A stretch of 64,000 nt of DNA from Haloferax litoreum (lineage in GTDB: Archaea > Halobacteriota > Halobacteria > Halobacteriales > Haloferacaceae), in NCBI RefSeq assembly GCF_009674605.1, contig NZ_WKJO01000001.1, positions 1,426,001-1,490,000 of the forward strand, in the 5' to 3' direction. How positions within the stretch are numbered: the first letter of the stretch is position 1; each line of letters opens with the position of its first letter. The position numbers were made by a program, and so were the translations under genes. This document shows, piece by piece, positions 25,339 to 41,999 of this stretch. The notes under the pieces are model-generated. The model was not told the DNA's origin and made no database searches. It saw only the letters and a program-made list of their open reading frames with translations.

Positions 25339-26133
25339 TCAGCCCAGTTTGTCGTACGTCTGCTGCTGGGACTTCCAGTAGAGGAAGCCACCTGCGAGCA
25401 GTGCGACGACGACGAGACCACCGGCGGCGTAGATGAGCAGTTGAGTCGTCTGACTCGACTGCTTCGCGTTGTTCGCGCGGGTCTCGGCTTCTTCGGCGAG
25501 GTTAGACGCGAGGCCGAACTCGCCGCCTTCGAAGGCCTCGACAGCGTTGTCGAACGACTGCTGTGCCTCCTGAGTGTTTGCACCACTGGCGGCCGTGATG
25601 GCTGCCTTCGCACCGTCGAGTTTGTCGCGCGCGGCGGCGCTCTCTTCAGTGTAGTGGGTCGCGTTCCACGTGCCGATATCGTTACTGGAGCCACCCTCGC
25701 GGGTCTGTTCGAGCGAGAGGACGGTGAACTCCTGTGCCGGGTCGTAGCTGAACTCGTCGACCGCTGGCACGGTGCCAGTCACCGACACTTCGACTTCGCT
25801 CGTTCCGTCGTCAGCGGCGACTTGCGCCCCGCTGAAGTTCTGCCCGTCGAAGGACTGCTGGTCGACTTTCGCGCCCGTCTGGTCGTAGTACGTGACGGTC
25901 CACGTCACGTCTTCGAGGTGGGTCTGTCCTGCAAGCGTCCACGCTTCGAGTTGCGGGTTCTTGTACAGTTCGTCGAGCGTGACCGATGCGGTCACTTTCG
26001 AACCGACCTGCGCCTCGGAGGGTGTGTCCTCGGAGGCGACGCTCACGGCGCCTGCCGGAATCGCAGCGACCGACAGGAGCACGAGGAGCGCGAGGGCCAG
26101 CTTAGAAAAGCGACTCCAGTTCGTCCTCGTCAT
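25339..26133 (-). CDS. Exported membrane-anchored protein overlapping cetZ1
   Basis: 264 residues. Sec signal peptide 1-29 (LALALLVLLSVAAIPAGA), then an extracytoplasmic region with a beta-rich part (45-150) and an alanine-rich helical part (165-230), a membrane segment at about 235-255 (LLIYAAGGLVVVALLAGGFL) and a short cytoplasmic tail KSQQQTYDKLG. Its start overlaps the 3' end of cetZ1 by 32 bases, so translation is likely coupled. The tail could contact CetZ1 under the membrane, which is speculation. No known domain is recognised. Confidence 0.8.
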   Translation of the reverse strand: MTRTNWSRFSKLALALLVLLSVAAIPAGAVSVASEDTPSEAQVGSKVTASVTLDELYKNPQLEAWTLAGQTHLEDVTWTVTYYDQTGAKVDQQSFDGQNFSGAQVAADDGTSEVEVSVTGTVPAVDEFSYDPAQEFTVLSLEQTREGGSSNDIGTWNATHYTEESAAARDKLDGAKAAITAASGANTQEAQQSFDNAVEAFEGGEFGLASNLAEEAETRANNAKQSSQTTQLLIYAAGGLVVVALLAGGFLYWKSQQQTYDKLG

Positions 26134-27289
26134 CGTTTATGAGGTTCTCCAAATTGGACTCGCTCTCTTGACGAATCTCCTCGATGTTGTCTTGCGCCTC
26201 GATGGCGACCTGCTGTAGTTCCTTGATGCGCGGCACGTTCGCCACGCCGGACAGGAGGATGACACTCGCGACCTTTCCGGCACCCGGAATCGGATAGTCG
26301 CCACCGCGAACTTCCATGGAACCGGTCTGCTCCTCGATCCATTTCCGCCCGCGCTCTATGCCTTTCCGGTTCAGATGCTCCGGCGGGCCAGCGAGGACGA
26401 GCAGTGCGCGTTCGGCGCCTTCGATTTCACAGGGGAGTGTAAGGCGACCGAGCGCGGCTTTGCGGACGAGGCTGGTGATTCGGTTCGTCGTGTGAGCGGT
26501 GTCGAGGTTGTCGTCGGGTTCGTCACCGCCAGTGAGTCGCGACAGGAGGCCGCCACTTTTCTTCTTCCGTGGTTCGACGCCTTCGGACGCGTAGCCGACG
26601 GTCGAGACGCCGCCACCGGCCAGCGTGTTGATAATCTCAGACGAGTCGACGACGGACTCTGCGACTTCCTGCCCGTCCGTGACTTCGCCGGCCCCGAAGA
26701 GGACGCCGAAGCGGTTGACGATCTCTTCGTTGATCTCGTCGTATCCGCCCTGGACAGACTCGCCGGTCTTACGCCAGGCGTCGTTGTCGAACACGAGGAG
26801 GTTGTCGACCTCGCGGACGAACGTCTGGAACGACCGCGCGGCGTTCAGGGTGTAGATGCCACCCTCGTCGGACCCCGGCAGGATGCCGAGTCCGTAGACA
26901 GGTTCAGTGTAGATACGCTTGAGGTGTTTCGCAAGGACTGGCGCGCCGCCGGACCCGGTACCGCCACCGAGACCGGAGACGACGAGGAAGGCGTCGACTT
27001 CGTGGACGGGGATGCTGTCGATGGCACCCTGCACCTCGTCGATGTCTTCCTCGGCGATTTCCGCGCCGAGTTCGTTGTCCGCACCGACCCCGTGTCCCTT
27101 CACGCGGGACTGGCCGATGAGGACGCGCTGGTCCTTCGGGATGTTCTTCAATCCGAGCAAGTCGGCTTTCGCAGAGTTAACTGCGACGGCGGCGCGAACG
27201 ATGCCTGCGTTTCGTTCGCGGTCGTACTCGACGAACTTGTCGACTACTTTTCCCCCGGCTTGCCCGAATCCGATCATTGCGAGCTTCAT
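26102..27289 (-). CDS. cetZ1: Tubulin/FtsZ-superfamily protein CetZ1
   Basis: 395 residues, very like my memory of Haloferax volcanii CetZ1, which controls rod shape and motility. T1 loop GQAGG (9-13), tubulin signature GGGTGSG at 108-114, T7-loop DSSE with Glu218, the residue whose mutation blocks GTP hydrolysis in CetZ1. The C-terminal tail NLENLINDDEDELESLF is acidic. It polymerises with GTP at the envelope. A membrane protein gene overlaps its 3' end. Two divergent paralogues lie at 36.8-39.3 kb. Confidence 0.97.
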   Translation of the reverse strand: MKLAMIGFGQAGGKVVDKFVEYDRERNAGIVRAAVAVNSAKADLLGLKNIPKDQRVLIGQSRVKGHGVGADNELGAEIAEEDIDEVQGAIDSIPVHEVDAFLVVSGLGGGTGSGGAPVLAKHLKRIYTEPVYGLGILPGSDEGGIYTLNAARSFQTFVREVDNLLVFDNDAWRKTGESVQGGYDEINEEIVNRFGVLFGAGEVTDGQEVAESVVDSSEIINTLAGGGVSTVGYASEGVEPRKKKSGGLLSRLTGGDEPDDNLDTAHTTNRITSLVRKAALGRLTLPCEIEGAERALLVLAGPPEHLNRKGIERGRKWIEEQTGSMEVRGGDYPIPGAGKVASVILLSGVANVPRIKELQQVAIEAQDNIEEIRQESESNLENLINDDEDELESLF

Positions 27290-35761: not shown

Positions 35762-36508
35762 TCACTCCCTGACACCGTCGCCATCACCGTCGCCGTCTGT
35801 CTCGACAGTTCGTTCGATGTCTGCTGTCTCCGGTTCGTGCTCCGTCGCCATCTGTTCTTCCAGTTTCTCGATAGCCCGTTCGCGTTCGCCGACGACGGAG
35901 GCGTCCCGTAGGCCGAGTGAGATGGCTGTATCGAAGCACCGAACTGCCGCTTCGTACTGGCCGCGTTCGGCGAGGAAGAAGCCACGGTTGTACCACGCAT
36001 GCGGTTCTCTCGGGTCGAGTTCGACTGCTCGTTCCGCGTGGTCCAGCGGTTCGGACGAGTCGCCGAACTCCCACAGTGCGTACGCGAGGTTCGTCTCGGC
36101 AGTCGCGGCGAACTCGTTGTCGTCGTCGATGCGGAGTGCTTCTCGTGCGGCACCGATTGCCTCGTCGTACTCTGCTAACTGTGCGTGTGCGACGCCCTTG
36201 TTCACCCACGCTTCCTGTGCGTCGTGTGAGTCCTCGTCCGCGTAGGCGATGGCGCGCGCGAAGCTATCGATTGCCTGTTCGAACTCCTCGATGGCGACGT
36301 AGGTCAACCCGATTTCGATGAGTGCCAGTACGTCTACGTGTTCGGGAACGACCTGTGACTCGTCGACGATGTCCGAGAGGACGTAGTCGTCTGTCGGGTC
36401 GACGAGTCTGGTGTTCGTCCGAAGTTCGGGCGGGTCCAGGTCGAATCCGTCGTACGGGTCGCCGAATCCGTCGCCGTCCGAGTATCGGTGGTCACGCGTC
36501 GAGGCCAT
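35762..36508 (-). CDS. Tetratricopeptide repeat protein
   Basis: 248 residues from ATG 36508. After an acidic, Asp-rich leader (1-60) come about four TPR units with typical spacing: IGLTYVAIEEFEQAIDSFARAI, WVNKGVAHAQLAEYDEAIGAAREAL, AATAETNLAYALWEFGDSSEPL, WYNRGFFLAERGQYEAAVRCFDTAI. The C-terminus is acidic and disordered. It would be a protein-interaction scaffold. It is divergent from the tandem cetZ operon and shares its upstream region. Confidence 0.85.
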   Translation of the reverse strand: MASTRDHRYSDGDGFGDPYDGFDLDPPELRTNTRLVDPTDDYVLSDIVDESQVVPEHVDVLALIEIGLTYVAIEEFEQAIDSFARAIAYADEDSHDAQEAWVNKGVAHAQLAEYDEAIGAAREALRIDDDNEFAATAETNLAYALWEFGDSSEPLDHAERAVELDPREPHAWYNRGFFLAERGQYEAAVRCFDTAISLGLRDASVVGERERAIEKLEEQMATEHEPETADIERTVETDGDGDGDGVRE

Positions 36509-36531
36509 TCGTAACTGTTGGACGGCAATCG

Positions 36532-36537
36532 AGATAA
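36532..36537 (-). promoter_or_regulatory. TATA box of the TPR gene
   Basis: TTATCT on the minus strand (AGATAA at 36532-36537), about 26 bases before the ATG at 36508, the leaderless distance. Confidence 0.45.
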
Positions 36538-36589
36538 CCTTCACTCGCTGGGAAGCGTTTCCCCGAACTATTGTCTCGTCAGTAGGACA

Positions 36590-36787: not shown

Positions 36788-37960
36788 ATGAAATTAGGTA
36801 TCATTGGTGTCGGCAACGCAGGCAGTAAGATTGTCGACAAGATGGTCGAGTTCGAATCGCTCACGAATCGGAAACTCTGTCGTCACGTGATGGTGATAAA
36901 CACCGCACGGACGGACCTCACCAAACCAGACCACATCCCGGAGAACCGACGAATTCTCATCGGTGACACCCACCAGAAAGCCAAGGGCCACGGCGTCGGT
37001 GGCGACGTGGACGTCGGTGCCGAAGTCGCGAAGAACGACATCGACGAGATTCGACGCGCGTTCGACGACGTGGATATCCACGAGGTGGACGCGATTCTCG
37101 TCTGTGCGTCGCTCGGTGGGGGCACCGGTAGCGGTGCCGGTCCGGTGGTCATCAACGAACTGCAGAAGATGTACGACGAACCGGTGTACGGACTGGGCGT
37201 TCTGCCCGGCAAGTACGAAGGCGGCCGACCCGCCCTCAACGCGGCACGGTCCCTTCAGTCGTTCGTCAACAACACGGACAACTTCATCGCCTTCGACAAC
37301 GACGCGTGGCGGTCGAAAGACCAGACGGTCGGCGAGGGCTACGAGGGCATGAACCGCGAACTCGCGACGCGTATCGTCACGCTCCTCGGCGCTGGCGAGT
37401 ACGACGAACCGACCGTCGCAGAGAACGCGATGGACTCGAGCGACATCATCCGAACGCTCGATACCGACGGCATCTCGTCTATCGGCTACGCCTCGACGTC
37501 GGTCGAAAACGGCGACGATGGACTCTTGAACCGCTTCCGCGAGGAACACGAAATCGAGGACAACTCGAACTTGGCGGCAAAGATTAACGGTCTGGTCCGC
37601 CGCGCCGTCAACTCCCGACTCACGCTCCCGTGTGACGTTTCCAGCGCCGACCGGGCCCTCATCGTCCTCTCTGGCCCGCCGTCGGAACTCTCTCGGAAGG
37701 GTCTCGAAAGCGCCCGCGAGTGGATCGAAAACGAAGTCGACACCGTCGAAGTGCTCGCTGGCGACGACCCCCGAGAGAACGCCTCTGCGCTCTCCGCGGT
37801 GGTGTTGCTGTCGAACGTCACTCAGACGCCGCGCATCGAGGCAATCCAGGAACAGGCGGTCGAAGCACAGGAGAAAATCGCCGAACAGGAGGCCGTGCGC
37901 GAGGAAGAAATCGCCGACCTCATCACGGACAAGGACGGCAAAATCGACCCGGTCATCTGA
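36788..37960 (+). CDS. CetZ-family tubulin-like protein, divergent copy A
   Basis: 390 residues from ATG 36788 (MKLGIIGVGNAGSKIVDKMV). The GTP-binding T4 loop is intact (GGGTGSG, residues 110-116). In the T7 loop MDSSDII, Asp219 replaces the Glu218 that CetZ1 uses for GTP hydrolysis. The rest follows the CetZ fold (FIAFDNDAWR, TLPCDVSSADRALIVLSGPP). C-terminal tail EEEIADLITDKDGKIDPVI is unlike CetZ1. It is first in an operon with a second CetZ and a membrane protein; the next gene starts 53 bases later. Confidence 0.9.
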   Translation: MKLGIIGVGNAGSKIVDKMVEFESLTNRKLCRHVMVINTARTDLTKPDHIPENRRILIGDTHQKAKGHGVGGDVDVGAEVAKNDIDEIRRAFDDVDIHEVDAILVCASLGGGTGSGAGPVVINELQKMYDEPVYGLGVLPGKYEGGRPALNAARSLQSFVNNTDNFIAFDNDAWRSKDQTVGEGYEGMNRELATRIVTLLGAGEYDEPTVAENAMDSSDIIRTLDTDGISSIGYASTSVENGDDGLLNRFREEHEIEDNSNLAAKINGLVRRAVNSRLTLPCDVSSADRALIVLSGPPSELSRKGLESAREWIENEVDTVEVLAGDDPRENASALSAVVLLSNVTQTPRIEAIQEQAVEAQEKIAEQEAVREEEIADLITDKDGKIDPVI

Positions 37961-38012
37961 CCATGACTCCCGGTAACCGGGGGGCCGAGAGTACCTCCCA
38001 GGGAGTGGGTCG

Positions 38013-39326
38013 ATGAAGTTGGCAGTCATCGGCGTCGGGAACGCAGGTAGTCGCATCGTCAACAACATCCTCGACGTCGAGAAAGAGACCGGTCGGAACC
38101 TCTGTAACGGGAACACGCTCCTCGTCAACTCGACGAAACCGACGTTCGACGTGGACGAACACGTCCCCGAGGAGCGTCGCTTGGTCATCGGCGACGTCTA
38201 CTGGGACGCCGACGGGTCCGACATCGACGGCGACCCGGAGTTGGCCGCCACGATTGCACGCGAAGAGAAGAACGACATCAACCGGGCGTTCGACCTCATC
38301 GAGTTCCATCAGGTCGACGGTATCTTGGTGGTCGCTGGACTCGGCCGCGGCACCGGTGGCGGTGCCGGTGCCGTCGTCATCGACCAACTGAACGAGATTT
38401 GTGACCACCCGATATACGCCGTCGGCGTCCTTCCGGCCGAGGCGGAAGGCGACGAAGCGGCGCTGAGCGCCGCCCGCACACTGCAGTCGTTCGTCACGAA
38501 GGCTGACAACGTCATCACCTTCGACAACGATGCCTGGCAGGACGACGACGAACAGCGATGGGTCGACGAAGTCGAGTCACCCGATGAGGTGGCACCACCC
38601 GATGGTGAGGCACCCACCGGCGACGACGCAGACAGAAGCGGGTACGGACCGGTGAACACAGCACTGGCCGAACGACTCGTCACGCTGTTCGCAGCAGGCG
38701 AGTTCAGTGCCCCGTCGGCGTCCGAGAGTCGAATGGACCCGAGCGACATCATGCGAACGCTCGATACCGGCGGTCTGTCGTCTATCGGGTACGCTTCGGT
38801 CGAGTTGCCGCAGGGCGGTGGTATTCGCTCACTCGTCCGGTCGTTGTCGAACCGGTACTCGTGGATGCCCGGCGGCGCGTGGGCGTCTGCACCGCTCACA
38901 GAAATGGACGACGAAGACGCCGGAACCGCCGCGGCCAAAATCAACAACCTCGTCCGCGAGGCCGCTCGCTCGAAACTCACGCTGCCGTGTGAAATCACGA
39001 GCGCCGACCGGGCACTCGTCGTCCTGTCGGGGCCGTCGGAGACTCTCTCGCGAAAGGGGTTCGAAGGCGGGCGCTACTGGCTCGAACGAGAGGCAGACAT
39101 CGTGGACGTGATGGCGGGCGACGAACCGCACGACCGGGCGACGAGTCTCACGGCAGTCGTCCTCTTCTCGAACGTGACCGACGTGGCGCGAATCGAGGAG
39201 ATTCAGGAGACGGCAGTCGAGCACCAGCAAGCGCTGGACGCCGACGAGACGCTCGACGAGTCGGCAGAAGACCCGGCTGGCGAGTCGGCAGACGAGACGG
39301 CCACTGAGGCGGTGGACTCCCGATGA
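38013..39326 (+). CDS. CetZ-family tubulin-like protein, divergent copy B
   Basis: 437 residues (MKLAVIGVGNAGSRIVNNIL). The T4 loop is altered to GRGTGGG (111-117) in place of GGGTGSG, and the T7 loop is MDPSDIM with Asp245, so nucleotide handling may be weaker. A disordered acidic insertion (about 177-212, DDDEQRWVDEVESPDEVAPP...) and a second one near 285-300 separate it from other CetZ proteins, and the C-terminal tail (DADETLDESAEDPAGES) is very acidic. The stop codon overlaps the start of the next gene as ATGA. It may pair with copy A. Confidence 0.88.
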   Translation: MKLAVIGVGNAGSRIVNNILDVEKETGRNLCNGNTLLVNSTKPTFDVDEHVPEERRLVIGDVYWDADGSDIDGDPELAATIAREEKNDINRAFDLIEFHQVDGILVVAGLGRGTGGGAGAVVIDQLNEICDHPIYAVGVLPAEAEGDEAALSAARTLQSFVTKADNVITFDNDAWQDDDEQRWVDEVESPDEVAPPDGEAPTGDDADRSGYGPVNTALAERLVTLFAAGEFSAPSASESRMDPSDIMRTLDTGGLSSIGYASVELPQGGGIRSLVRSLSNRYSWMPGGAWASAPLTEMDDEDAGTAAAKINNLVREAARSKLTLPCEITSADRALVVLSGPSETLSRKGFEGGRYWLEREADIVDVMAGDEPHDRATSLTAVVLFSNVTDVARIEEIQETAVEHQQALDADETLDESAEDPAGESADETATEAVDSR

Positions 39327-40147
39327 ACACCCCGATGGACGACGACTGGCAAGATGCGCCGACGTGGGTTCCGAGTCGGGTCGCGAACACGGCCACTGCC
39401 ATGCGTGTCGACCTGTTCTCGTTGCACGCGTCGTGGATGAAACTCGTCTTCTCGCGCGAGTATGAGGGAGACCACTCGGTCATCGAGAACTGGGAACCCG
39501 AGAGTACGGGTGAGGCCGTGGGGCACCGTCTCTGGGCCGCACTCGGCGTACTGTACCTCGTTCTCGTGTACCCCATCTTCGTCTTGGGTCTGGCGACGCG
39601 GTACTACGCGCACCGGATCGACCGCATCACGGCGGGCCTCGGGTTCGTCGGTGTCACGGCCGTCTCGCTTCTCGTCTGGGGAGGCCTGACCGCGGCGACG
39701 TACCTCTCACCAATCGCGTTCGAGGGGTTCGTCGCCGTCGCGGTGGCGGGCGTCGTCGCAACCGTCTCCGCCGTCCTCGCACTCTTCTTCTCCGGCAGAA
39801 CGGGGCGACTGACGACGGTCGCACTCGCCTATCCCTTCGGGGTCACTGCACTCTTTCTCCCGCCCGTCGTCGCTTCACTCTACTCCCCGACGCTCGCGTC
39901 GGTCGTCTTCCCGAGTTCGACGTCACTCGCAATCTGGTTGCTGAACAACGTCCTCGACTTCGCTGGCATCGCCGCGTTCATCCGCGCGTCGTTCGAGTTG
40001 CAGGGTCTGGCGTACGTCGGCATGTGGTTCGCCCTCGCGGTTCCAGTTGGCTGGTCTCTCGGTGGCCTCGTCACGCTCGTGAACCGCGTTCGGACCCCAC
40101 GTACGTCACCGCATGCAGAGGGCGCAGGGTCGAAACTGTACCGGTGA
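39323..40147 (+). CDS. Multi-pass membrane protein of the tandem cetZ operon
   Basis: 274 residues starting within the stop codon of copy B (ATGA), so translation is probably coupled. The first 65 residues are cytoplasmic (DWQDAPTWVPSRVANTATAMRVDLFSLH). About five or six membrane segments follow (LGVLYLVLVYPIFVLGLA, GLGFVGVTAVSLLVWGGL, FVAVAVAGVVATVSAVLALFF, VGWSLGGLVTLV). No homologue is recognised. Position suggests it anchors or regulates the two CetZ proteins. Confidence 0.82.
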   Translation: MNTPMDDDWQDAPTWVPSRVANTATAMRVDLFSLHASWMKLVFSREYEGDHSVIENWEPESTGEAVGHRLWAALGVLYLVLVYPIFVLGLATRYYAHRIDRITAGLGFVGVTAVSLLVWGGLTAATYLSPIAFEGFVAVAVAGVVATVSAVLALFFSGRTGRLTTVALAYPFGVTALFLPPVVASLYSPTLASVVFPSSTSLAIWLLNNVLDFAGIAAFIRASFELQGLAYVGMWFALAVPVGWSLGGLVTLVNRVRTPRTSPHAEGAGSKLYR

Positions 40148-40229: not shown

Positions 40230-40250
40230 TGCGGGGGACGAGATTCGAAC
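40230..40250 (-). repeat. Copy of the 3' end of tRNA-Leu
   Basis: TGCGGGGGACGAGATTCGAAC repeats the T arm and acceptor end of the neighbouring tRNA-Leu (40323-40343) with one mismatch in 21. Such copies are left by integrases that use tRNA 3' ends as attachment sites. Nothing resembling an integrase lies close by. Confidence 0.5.
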
Positions 40251-40322
40251 CACGGTCGCTCCGCTCACCGATGAAAAGGCGTGGGACGCATCGCTCTGCT
40301 CACTGTCGTTCGCAGAAGCGAG

Positions 40323-40407
40323 TGCGGGGGACGAGATTTGAACTCGCGAACCCCTACGGGAGCGGATCTTAAGTCCGCCGCTTTTGGCCTGGCTCAGCCA
40401 CCCCCGC
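40323..40407 (-). tRNA. tRNA-Leu (anticodon TAA)
   Basis: 85 bases with the class II long variable arm. Acceptor stem GCGGGGG/CCCCCGC is perfect, anticodon stem GCGGA/TCCGC encloses CTTAAGA with T33 and TAA as bases 34-36, the discriminator is A, and the T arm is CGAGTTCAAATCTCG. No intron. Confidence 0.93.
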
Positions 40408-40662: not shown

Positions 40663-40785
40663 GTGGCAACGCGTAAGAACATCTCTATCCGCGACGACCA
40701 AGCCGAGTGGATTCAAGAGAATCACCTTAATCTCTCGTCGTTCGTTCAAGAGAAGCTCGACGAACTCATCGAAGAACGCTCGTGA
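40663..40785 (+). CDS. Ribbon-helix-helix-like small protein in the TnpB element
   Basis: 40 residues from GTG 40663: MATRKNISIRDDQAEWI then QENHLNLSSFVQEKLDELIEERS. The strand (ISIRDDQ) and two helices fit a minimal RHH (Arc/CopG-type) DNA-binding fold. Its stop overlaps the tnpB GTG start (GTGA at 40782), so the two genes are translationally coupled. Similar tiny genes precede tnpB in other haloarchaeal elements; a role in repression is inference. Confidence 0.65.
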   Translation: MATRKNISIRDDQAEWIQENHLNLSSFVQEKLDELIEERS

Positions 40786-41999
40786 ACTACAGCTACAGGT
40801 ATCGGCTTCGACCGTCCGACGCGCTCGAAGAGCAGTTAGTGTGGACTGTCGATACCTGTAGACAAGTCTACAACCACTTCCTCCACCGACTCAATCGGAA
40901 CAACGACACCTCGGCGTACTCCGAACAGAAGCTCTTGCCGAGCCTAAAGACGTGGTGGGGTGACCTGAAACAAGTTCACTCGAAAGTTCTTCAGAAGGTC
41001 GTACAGCGATTGTACAACAATCTATCGTCGCTTCGTGGGCGCAAAGAGAACGGCCACCGCATCGGGACGCTCAAGTGGAAACAGAAGGGTGAGTACCGCA
41101 GTTTCACCTACAGTCAATCCGGCTTCAAGCTCAAAAACACGAGCGGCCGGACGCGGCTGTGGCTCTCGAAACTCGGCGAAATCTCAATCATATTCCACCG
41201 TGAGTTGCCCGAAGATGCTGAAATCAAGACTGTCACCGTGAAGCAGGAGCCCACCGGGAAGTGGTACGCTATCCTCGGTGTTGAGACTCCCAACGATCCA
41301 CCCGGAAAACCGGAGAACCCTGAGAGGTGTGTCGGTATCGATGTAGGGATTCTCAAATATACTCACGACACCGACGGCTACGCGGTTGGATCTCTCGACT
41401 CATCAAAGGAGCGTGAGCGGGTGGAACGCGCTCAACGCGACCTCTCACGGACGGAACATGGGTCTGCGAATTGGGAGAAACAACGCCGCGTCGTGGCCGA
41501 ACGCTACGCCGACCTCAAGCGAAAACGCCGTGACTTCCTCCACAAGTTGTCGAACTACTACGCTACCGAGTACGACTTCGTGGCGGTTGAGGACTTAGAT
41601 GCGAAAGGCTTGATCGAACTACCGGGGAACTCGCAAAATCGAGCGAGTGCGTCGTGGGGAACGTTCCTCCGGATGCTCGAATATAAGTGCGAACGCGAAG
41701 GGACACACTTCATCGCCGTGAGCCCTCACGGAACGACAAAAGAGTGCGCGTCCTGCGGTGTTTCAGCGGACAAGCCGTTGTGGCTCCGTGAACACTCTTG
41801 TCCTACCTGTGGGTTTGAAGCGGACAGGGACGCGAACGCGGCGTGGAATATCCTTTCTCGCGGCCTCAAAGACTTAGGAGTGGGACACTCCGAATCAACG
41901 CCTGTGGAGACTGCGCTCCCGGTGGATACGTTCGTATCTGCAAAGCGCGTCGTTGAAGCAGGAAGCCCTACCCCCAGAAGTGAACGGCGTCAGCCGTGA
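40782..41999 (+). CDS. tnpB: TnpB, RNA-guided RuvC-like nuclease of an IS1341-type element
   Basis: 405 residues from a GTG. The RuvC active site is complete: Asp187 (GIDVGILKYTH), Glu270 (AVEDLDA) and Asp350 (DRDANAAWNIL). The zinc ribbon CASC/CPTC (322, 325, 340, 343) sits between the last two. TnpB proteins use an omega RNA from the element's right end to cut DNA beside a target-adjacent motif. The gene is intact, and its 3' end overlaps the likely RNA region. Confidence 0.94.
   Translation: MNYSYRYRLRPSDALEEQLVWTVDTCRQVYNHFLHRLNRNNDTSAYSEQKLLPSLKTWWGDLKQVHSKVLQKVVQRLYNNLSSLRGRKENGHRIGTLKWKQKGEYRSFTYSQSGFKLKNTSGRTRLWLSKLGEISIIFHRELPEDAEIKTVTVKQEPTGKWYAILGVETPNDPPGKPENPERCVGIDVGILKYTHDTDGYAVGSLDSSKERERVERAQRDLSRTEHGSANWEKQRRVVAERYADLKRKRRDFLHKLSNYYATEYDFVAVEDLDAKGLIELPGNSQNRASASWGTFLRMLEYKCEREGTHFIAVSPHGTTKECASCGVSADKPLWLREHSCPTCGFEADRDANAAWNILSRGLKDLGVGHSESTPVETALPVDTFVSAKRVVEAGSPTPRSERRQP

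Follow-up and report, generated by a model that had tools for sequence, protein, structure and literature searches.

A conserved CetZ tubulin pair in haloarchaea with a predicted asymmetric nucleotide site and a candidate membrane partner

Two CetZ-family tubulin genes lie in tandem on the + strand of the DNA analyzed here (the window, 64,000 nucleotides of the Haloferax litoreum genome) and are followed on that strand by a gene for a membrane protein. We call the genes cetZ-A, cetZ-B and MEM, and the two CetZ proteins A and B. The arrangement had been described in a first-pass annotation and was confirmed, coordinates included. The features of the locus are as follows:

35762..36544, - strand: TPR-repeat protein, the divergent flank of the operon
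36788..37960, + strand: cetZ-A, CetZ-family tubulin homologue, 390 aa (PF21011, 1.9e-65; PF00091, 3.7e-31); nucleotide-pocket motifs T1-T6 all intact; T7 DxxD (D216, D219) intact
37961..38012, + strand: spacer between cetZ-A and cetZ-B, 52 nt (-1 to 142 nt at the other 45 loci)
38013..39326, + strand: cetZ-B, sister-derived CetZ, 437 aa (PF21011, 1e-49; PF00091, 1.3e-19); pocket loops T3, T4 and T5 changed (T4 GRGTGGG vs GGGTGSG); T7 DxxD (D242, D245) intact; an insert between T6 and H7; an acidic tail
39323..40147, + strand: MEM, haloarchaeal membrane protein, 274 aa, 5-6 spans by hydropathy
40322..40407, - strand: tRNA-Leu(taa), bordering the operon
26102..27289, - strand: CetZ1 orthologue, outside the pair and given for context (831 bits to 4B46 over 1-395)

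Homologue starts place the beginning of cetZ-A at the ATG at 36788, in a frame that is open upstream to 36653. The tandem order of the CetZ genes is as first annotated, but their spacing, given there as 53 bases, measures 52 nt. The stop of cetZ-B and the start of MEM do share an ATGA (39323-39326), and hydropathy bears out the five or six membrane spans assigned to MEM, with five to six hydrophobic spans. Both CetZ proteins match PF21011 (CetZ_C) and PF00091 (Tubulin), all over the Pfam cut-offs, and share these C-terminal and GTPase domains, as well as the fold, with CetZ1 and CetZ2 of Haloferax volcanii (4B46 and 4B45). CetZ-A scores 370 bits against 4B46 in sequence comparison, and the AlphaFold2 model of CetZ-B (pLDDT 84.7) has 4B46 as its best PDB match (TM 0.92, normalized by target). 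Membership of both proteins in the CetZ family is clear. The genome carries five CetZ genes, and neither member of the pair is a close copy of CetZ1, as had been noted: identity to the CetZ1 of the window, which lies 9.5 kb off (about 10 kb in the annotation), is 47% for A and 36% for B.

Orthologues of cetZ-A (at least 70% identity) were detected in 48 of the 391 haloarchaeal genomes sampled. We examined 46 cetZ-A loci (the window and 45 others), where CetZ genes were located by tblastn, gene calling by length alone having overlooked some. A second, overlapping set comprised 49 named loci from GTDB genomes, in which gaps were taken from alignments. In 46/46 loci another CetZ gene lies 3' of cetZ-A on the same strand, -1 to 142 nt away, and in 49/49 named loci it likewise follows cetZ-A on that strand, at no more than about 150 nt, which rules out chance adjacency; no cetZ-A without a neighboring cetZ-B was found in either of these overlapping sets. 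The taxa bearing the pair include Haloferax profundi, H. marinum, H. larsenii and H. elongans as well as Salinigranum, Halobonum, Natrinema, Halovenus, Halohasta, Halonotius, Halorubrum, Halarchaeum, Halopenitus, Halobacterium and others. Apparent frameshifts or splits of cetZ-B occur in a few draft genomes (L188, L224 and L225). When the three-gene order was checked for conservation, the A/B pair was found to be conserved but the full order with MEM was confined to Haloferax and Salinigranum: strictly, on one strand, it occurs only in five Haloferax genomes and Salinigranum salinum, a sixth Haloferax locus being cut by a contig end. The robust unit is the A/B pair, which is obligate and co-inherited at the loci examined. 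In Halorubrum amylolyticum (L198:8001-12500), a third CetZ-like gene lies about 470 nt past the pair, making a tandem triplet.

Phylogenetic analysis by maximum likelihood recovered A and B as two monophyletic sister groups (100/98 for A+B). Other CetZ proteins that we call S (54-58% identical) fall outside A+B, and the CetZ1 and CetZ2-like sequences fall further out. The A+B clade is separated from these with support of 98/96, and A and B thus belong to neither the CetZ1 nor the CetZ2 subfamily. The topology indicates that the two proteins stem from one duplication. Distances within A and within B are correlated (mirror-tree r=0.86; 0/2000 permutations), and B has evolved at about three times the rate of A. 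A third, uncharacterized halobacterial CetZ subfamily was reported by Brown and Duggin in 2023 (PMC9856176) and perhaps corresponds to CetZ-A. Among the halobacterial groups, the accessible text of that paper treats the gene neighborhoods of cetZ1 and cetZ2, to which it adds N. pharaonis; the neighborhoods do not cover the third subfamily, and this text makes no mention of a tandem CetZ pair or of MEM.

We compared the nucleotide-pocket motifs across the loci. The motif table shows them kept in 46/46 A proteins. In B, the T2 Asn is retained in 14/45 sequences, T3 (KGHGVGGD) is lost and in several species carries insertions tens of residues long, the second Gly of T4 is replaced by Arg or Ser in 15/45, T5 (GxxEGG) is eroded and the T6 Asn is gone in 11/45. 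Over 24 pocket positions the mean number of departures is 0.3 in A, 0.9 in S and 7.8 in B (range 4-13), S being an imperfect control for divergence, with a mean pairwise identity of 67% vs 51% for B. The T7 Asp-Asp, on the other hand, is present in 46/46 A and 45/45 B, and the N-terminal residues of H10 are invariant in B. We assigned the two faces from motif positions and the FtsZ interface described in PMC5414002. Of the columns conserved across CetZ, B retains a fraction of 0.84 on the T7 face and 0.65 on the nucleotide face, compared with 0.77 in the rest of the protein, a modest contrast (Mann-Whitney p=0.02; circular shift 4/117). T1 and T4 persist to a large extent in B, and in some lineages the base contacts are almost all preserved. 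In the B of the window, most contacts to base and ribose survive and it is the phosphate loops that have changed; weak nucleotide binding is therefore possible, and certain B proteins may have kept the ability to bind nucleotide. Taken together, the motifs suggest that the GTP site is normal in A but not in B, and that A and B form an asymmetric pair resembling alpha/beta-tubulin.

The site that the operon occupies varies within Haloferax. The TPR gene is present in all 15 Haloferax genomes, and in those without the operon it lies close to tRNA-Leu(taa); no cetZ remnant was found between them, and the operon is therefore a block that is present or absent in this genus. We considered the TPR gene as a component of the system and rejected it, since 15/15 genomes carry it with or without the operon. 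In one Haloferax genome that lacks the operon (G266), a different CetZ, 49% identical to CetZ-A, lies about 6.5 kb from the empty site (L254:11542-12651). The 14 bases at 40324-40337, from the 3' end of tRNA-Leu(taa), recur at 40231-40244, a distance of 93 bases. Such repeats resemble traces of integration at tRNA genes, and similar pieces are found at the empty site in other Haloferax. Just downstream of the tRNA gene, an open reading frame at 40782-41999 resembles a TnpB-type (IS200/IS605-like) protein by sequence.

MEM has no match in Pfam, NCBIfam or the PDB, and an AlphaFold2 run with 12 homologues gave an unusable model (pLDDT 48.8). Homologues are present in 329 of the 391 haloarchaeal genomes, whereas a sample of 242 other genomes from the phylum yielded none. 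The usual MEM site is downstream of an aldo/keto reductase gene, often ahead of a small membrane protein. In this home cluster (L144-L182) the small protein has 61-83 aa, and a sulfurtransferase-like gene is often nearby. A reading of MEM and its usual upstream gene as an ABC transporter was dropped when that gene proved to encode the aldo/keto reductase. Most MEM copies are not next to CetZ genes, and outside Haloferax and Salinigranum the gene faces the pair in convergent orientation, neighbors another CetZ or lies apart from any CetZ. MEM nevertheless adjoins a CetZ gene in four separate clades of its tree, which was rooted by midpoint, an ancestral linkage lost many times being the alternative. 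In the first, Haloferax/Salinigranum, MEM follows B on the same strand; in the second, Halarchaeum/Halobacterium with a related group of Haloferacaceae, it also comes after B but in convergent orientation. The third has MEM next to a solo S-type CetZ, and the fourth is a single locus (L178) where its neighbor is a divergent CetZ.

The presence of MEM also follows that of CetZ. Of the 391 genomes, 25 have no CetZ_C (20 named and five deduced from gaps in the lists); among these, 22 lack MEM, two have a fragment (G129 and G194) and one has an intact copy (G225); the MEM profile search took in the 20 named genomes, and none of the five is in the MEM list. MEM thus occurs in 326/366 CetZ-bearing vs 3/25 CetZ-less genomes (Fisher 1e-16, ignoring phylogeny, with Halococcus-like genomes of one family, f8, supplying many of the CetZ-less cases). 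As controls, all 25 CetZ-less genomes proved to have a homologue of the aldo/keto reductase, and 22 of the 25 also had the flanking gene that is sulfurtransferase-like. In several of them (e.g. G156 and G044) these two genes lie about 350 nt apart with MEM missing between them. Around 40 CetZ-bearing genomes, including most Haloferax, have no MEM, and MEM is therefore not required by CetZ in general. The distribution points to an independent evolutionary tie between MEM and CetZ genes, and MEM probably ties CetZ proteins to the membrane.

In FtsZ, the T7 loop of the neighboring subunit serves GTP hydrolysis. The same holds for tubulin, where the GTP of one subunit is hydrolyzed via the T7 loop of the next (PMC13394414, PMC13371889). 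We interpret A and B as a conserved asymmetric pair, with a probability of roughly 0.6, in which A would be the GTPase that forms filaments, B an activating, end-binding or sparse copolymer subunit, and MEM a CetZ-dependent receptor or anchor. A would act as a normal CetZ GTPase, from which B arose by one ancient tandem duplication. Because B retains the CetZ fold and the GTPase-activating T7 face, it could dock on the GTP face of A and complete the active site of A. The opposite site, made of the B pocket and the T7 loop of A, is predicted to be weak or dead because the nucleotide pocket and face of B have degenerated, leaving the live pockets to A. With T7 intact and its pocket degraded, B could activate A without itself being normally activated, and would therefore be a dedicated partner of A. 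As such a subunit, B may set filament length or turnover. Capping or punctuating of A filaments is favored over alternation by the rapid evolution of B and by the T3 insertions on the face that it leaves free. MEM, translationally coupled to CetZ-B at this locus, would most likely be the membrane receptor or anchor that holds the filament or its end.

The first-pass annotation had proposed a membrane-tethered heteropolymer of the two CetZ proteins. Its core, two CetZ proteins with a partner in the membrane, goes beyond a chance local arrangement, because the pair is obligate and MEM has an independent tie to CetZ, but the three-gene order is restricted to certain lineages and a symmetric heteropolymer fits poorly, the nucleotide face of B being degenerate and sometimes heavily inserted. 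An asymmetric pair, whether a copolymer with one live site or with B binding ends or activating, fits better. The closest contender, which we consider rather unlikely, is an obligate alternating ABAB heteropolymer of stable A/B heterodimers with one dead interface, as in alpha/beta-tubulin and the Asgard AtubAB. It would account for the gene adjacency, strict co-occurrence, coupled evolution and complementary asymmetry, and the operon-encoded AtubAB, with its GTPase-defective interface, is a precedent (PMC13394414). However, the face that the next A must contact is where B has its T5 changes and its large T3 insertions, which are lineage-specific; a rate about three times that of A is unusual for a stoichiometric lattice subunit; and the T7 acids retained by A would be superfluous for catalysis in an alternating polymer. 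The intact T7 of A is itself weak evidence for A-A contacts, A being so conserved overall.

Other readings treat the two proteins, or MEM, as independent. That A and B are ordinary CetZ proteins, merely co-expressed and building separate homopolymers, is improbable. Both do have the CetZ fold and the T7 acids, and other haloarchaea also have several CetZ proteins, but the pocket of B differs at 4-13 of the 24 positions kept by A and S, and no A occurs without B among the loci examined. The motif table disfavors the idea that B forms only homopolymers. Rapid evolution and pocket lesions would also be expected of a decaying duplicate heading for loss; for B this is very hard to sustain, since it is present at every CetZ-A locus, across several families, with invariant T7 acids and H10 N-terminal residues and a well-predicted fold, the broken draft copies being exceptions. 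For MEM, we regard it as distinctly unlikely that the protein is unrelated to CetZ function and hitch-hikes behind cetZ-B at the variable tRNA-Leu site. The present/absent behavior of the operon between the TPR gene and tRNA-Leu, and the position of most MEM genes beside the aldo/keto reductase instead, would suit such a passenger, whereas the independent CetZ neighborhoods in four MEM clades argue against it, as does the fact that CetZ-less lineages have lost or truncated MEM but keep its usual flanking genes.

The asymmetric pair resembles known systems in part. Asgard Heim-alpha/beta (PMC13371889), AtubAB (PMC13394414) and eukaryotic alpha/beta-tubulin are likewise paralogue pairs that arose by duplication, often in one operon, and A and B, as two co-inherited paralogues, share this property and the predicted asymmetry of a single live site. 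In alpha/beta pairs the asymmetry comes from the T7 residue (Glu vs Lys); in A and B both T7 loops are acidic, with no Glu-to-Lys loss in either partner, and one pocket has decayed instead. A and B belong to the CetZ lineage and not to tubulin proper, and would work like an alpha/beta pair without being one. Archaeal FtsZ1/FtsZ2 with SepF (PMC8178401, PMC8187382) also combine two tubulin-superfamily paralogues with a membrane tether, but SepF is a small peripheral anchor and MEM a polytopic membrane protein. Our literature search, outside preprints and most subscription journals, found no published description of a CetZ pair, heterodimer or membrane anchor. If our interpretation is true, an asymmetric tubulin pair exists outside the lineage of tubulin proper, reached by pocket decay rather than a T7 switch, and this is relevant to the question of why heterodimers have evolved again and again. 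MEM is a concrete candidate for the contact of CetZ filaments with the membrane, a question left open in the CetZ literature accessible to us. The broader proposal, that haloarchaea invented an asymmetric tubulin pair independently of the alpha/beta line and added a dedicated polytopic receptor, MEM, serving CetZ widely, is more tentative.

Elsewhere in the window, a single polypeptide encoded at 47462-48502 matches AhbA (siroheme decarboxylase subunit alpha) over its first half and AhbB (subunit beta) over its second, an apparent AhbA-AhbB fusion.
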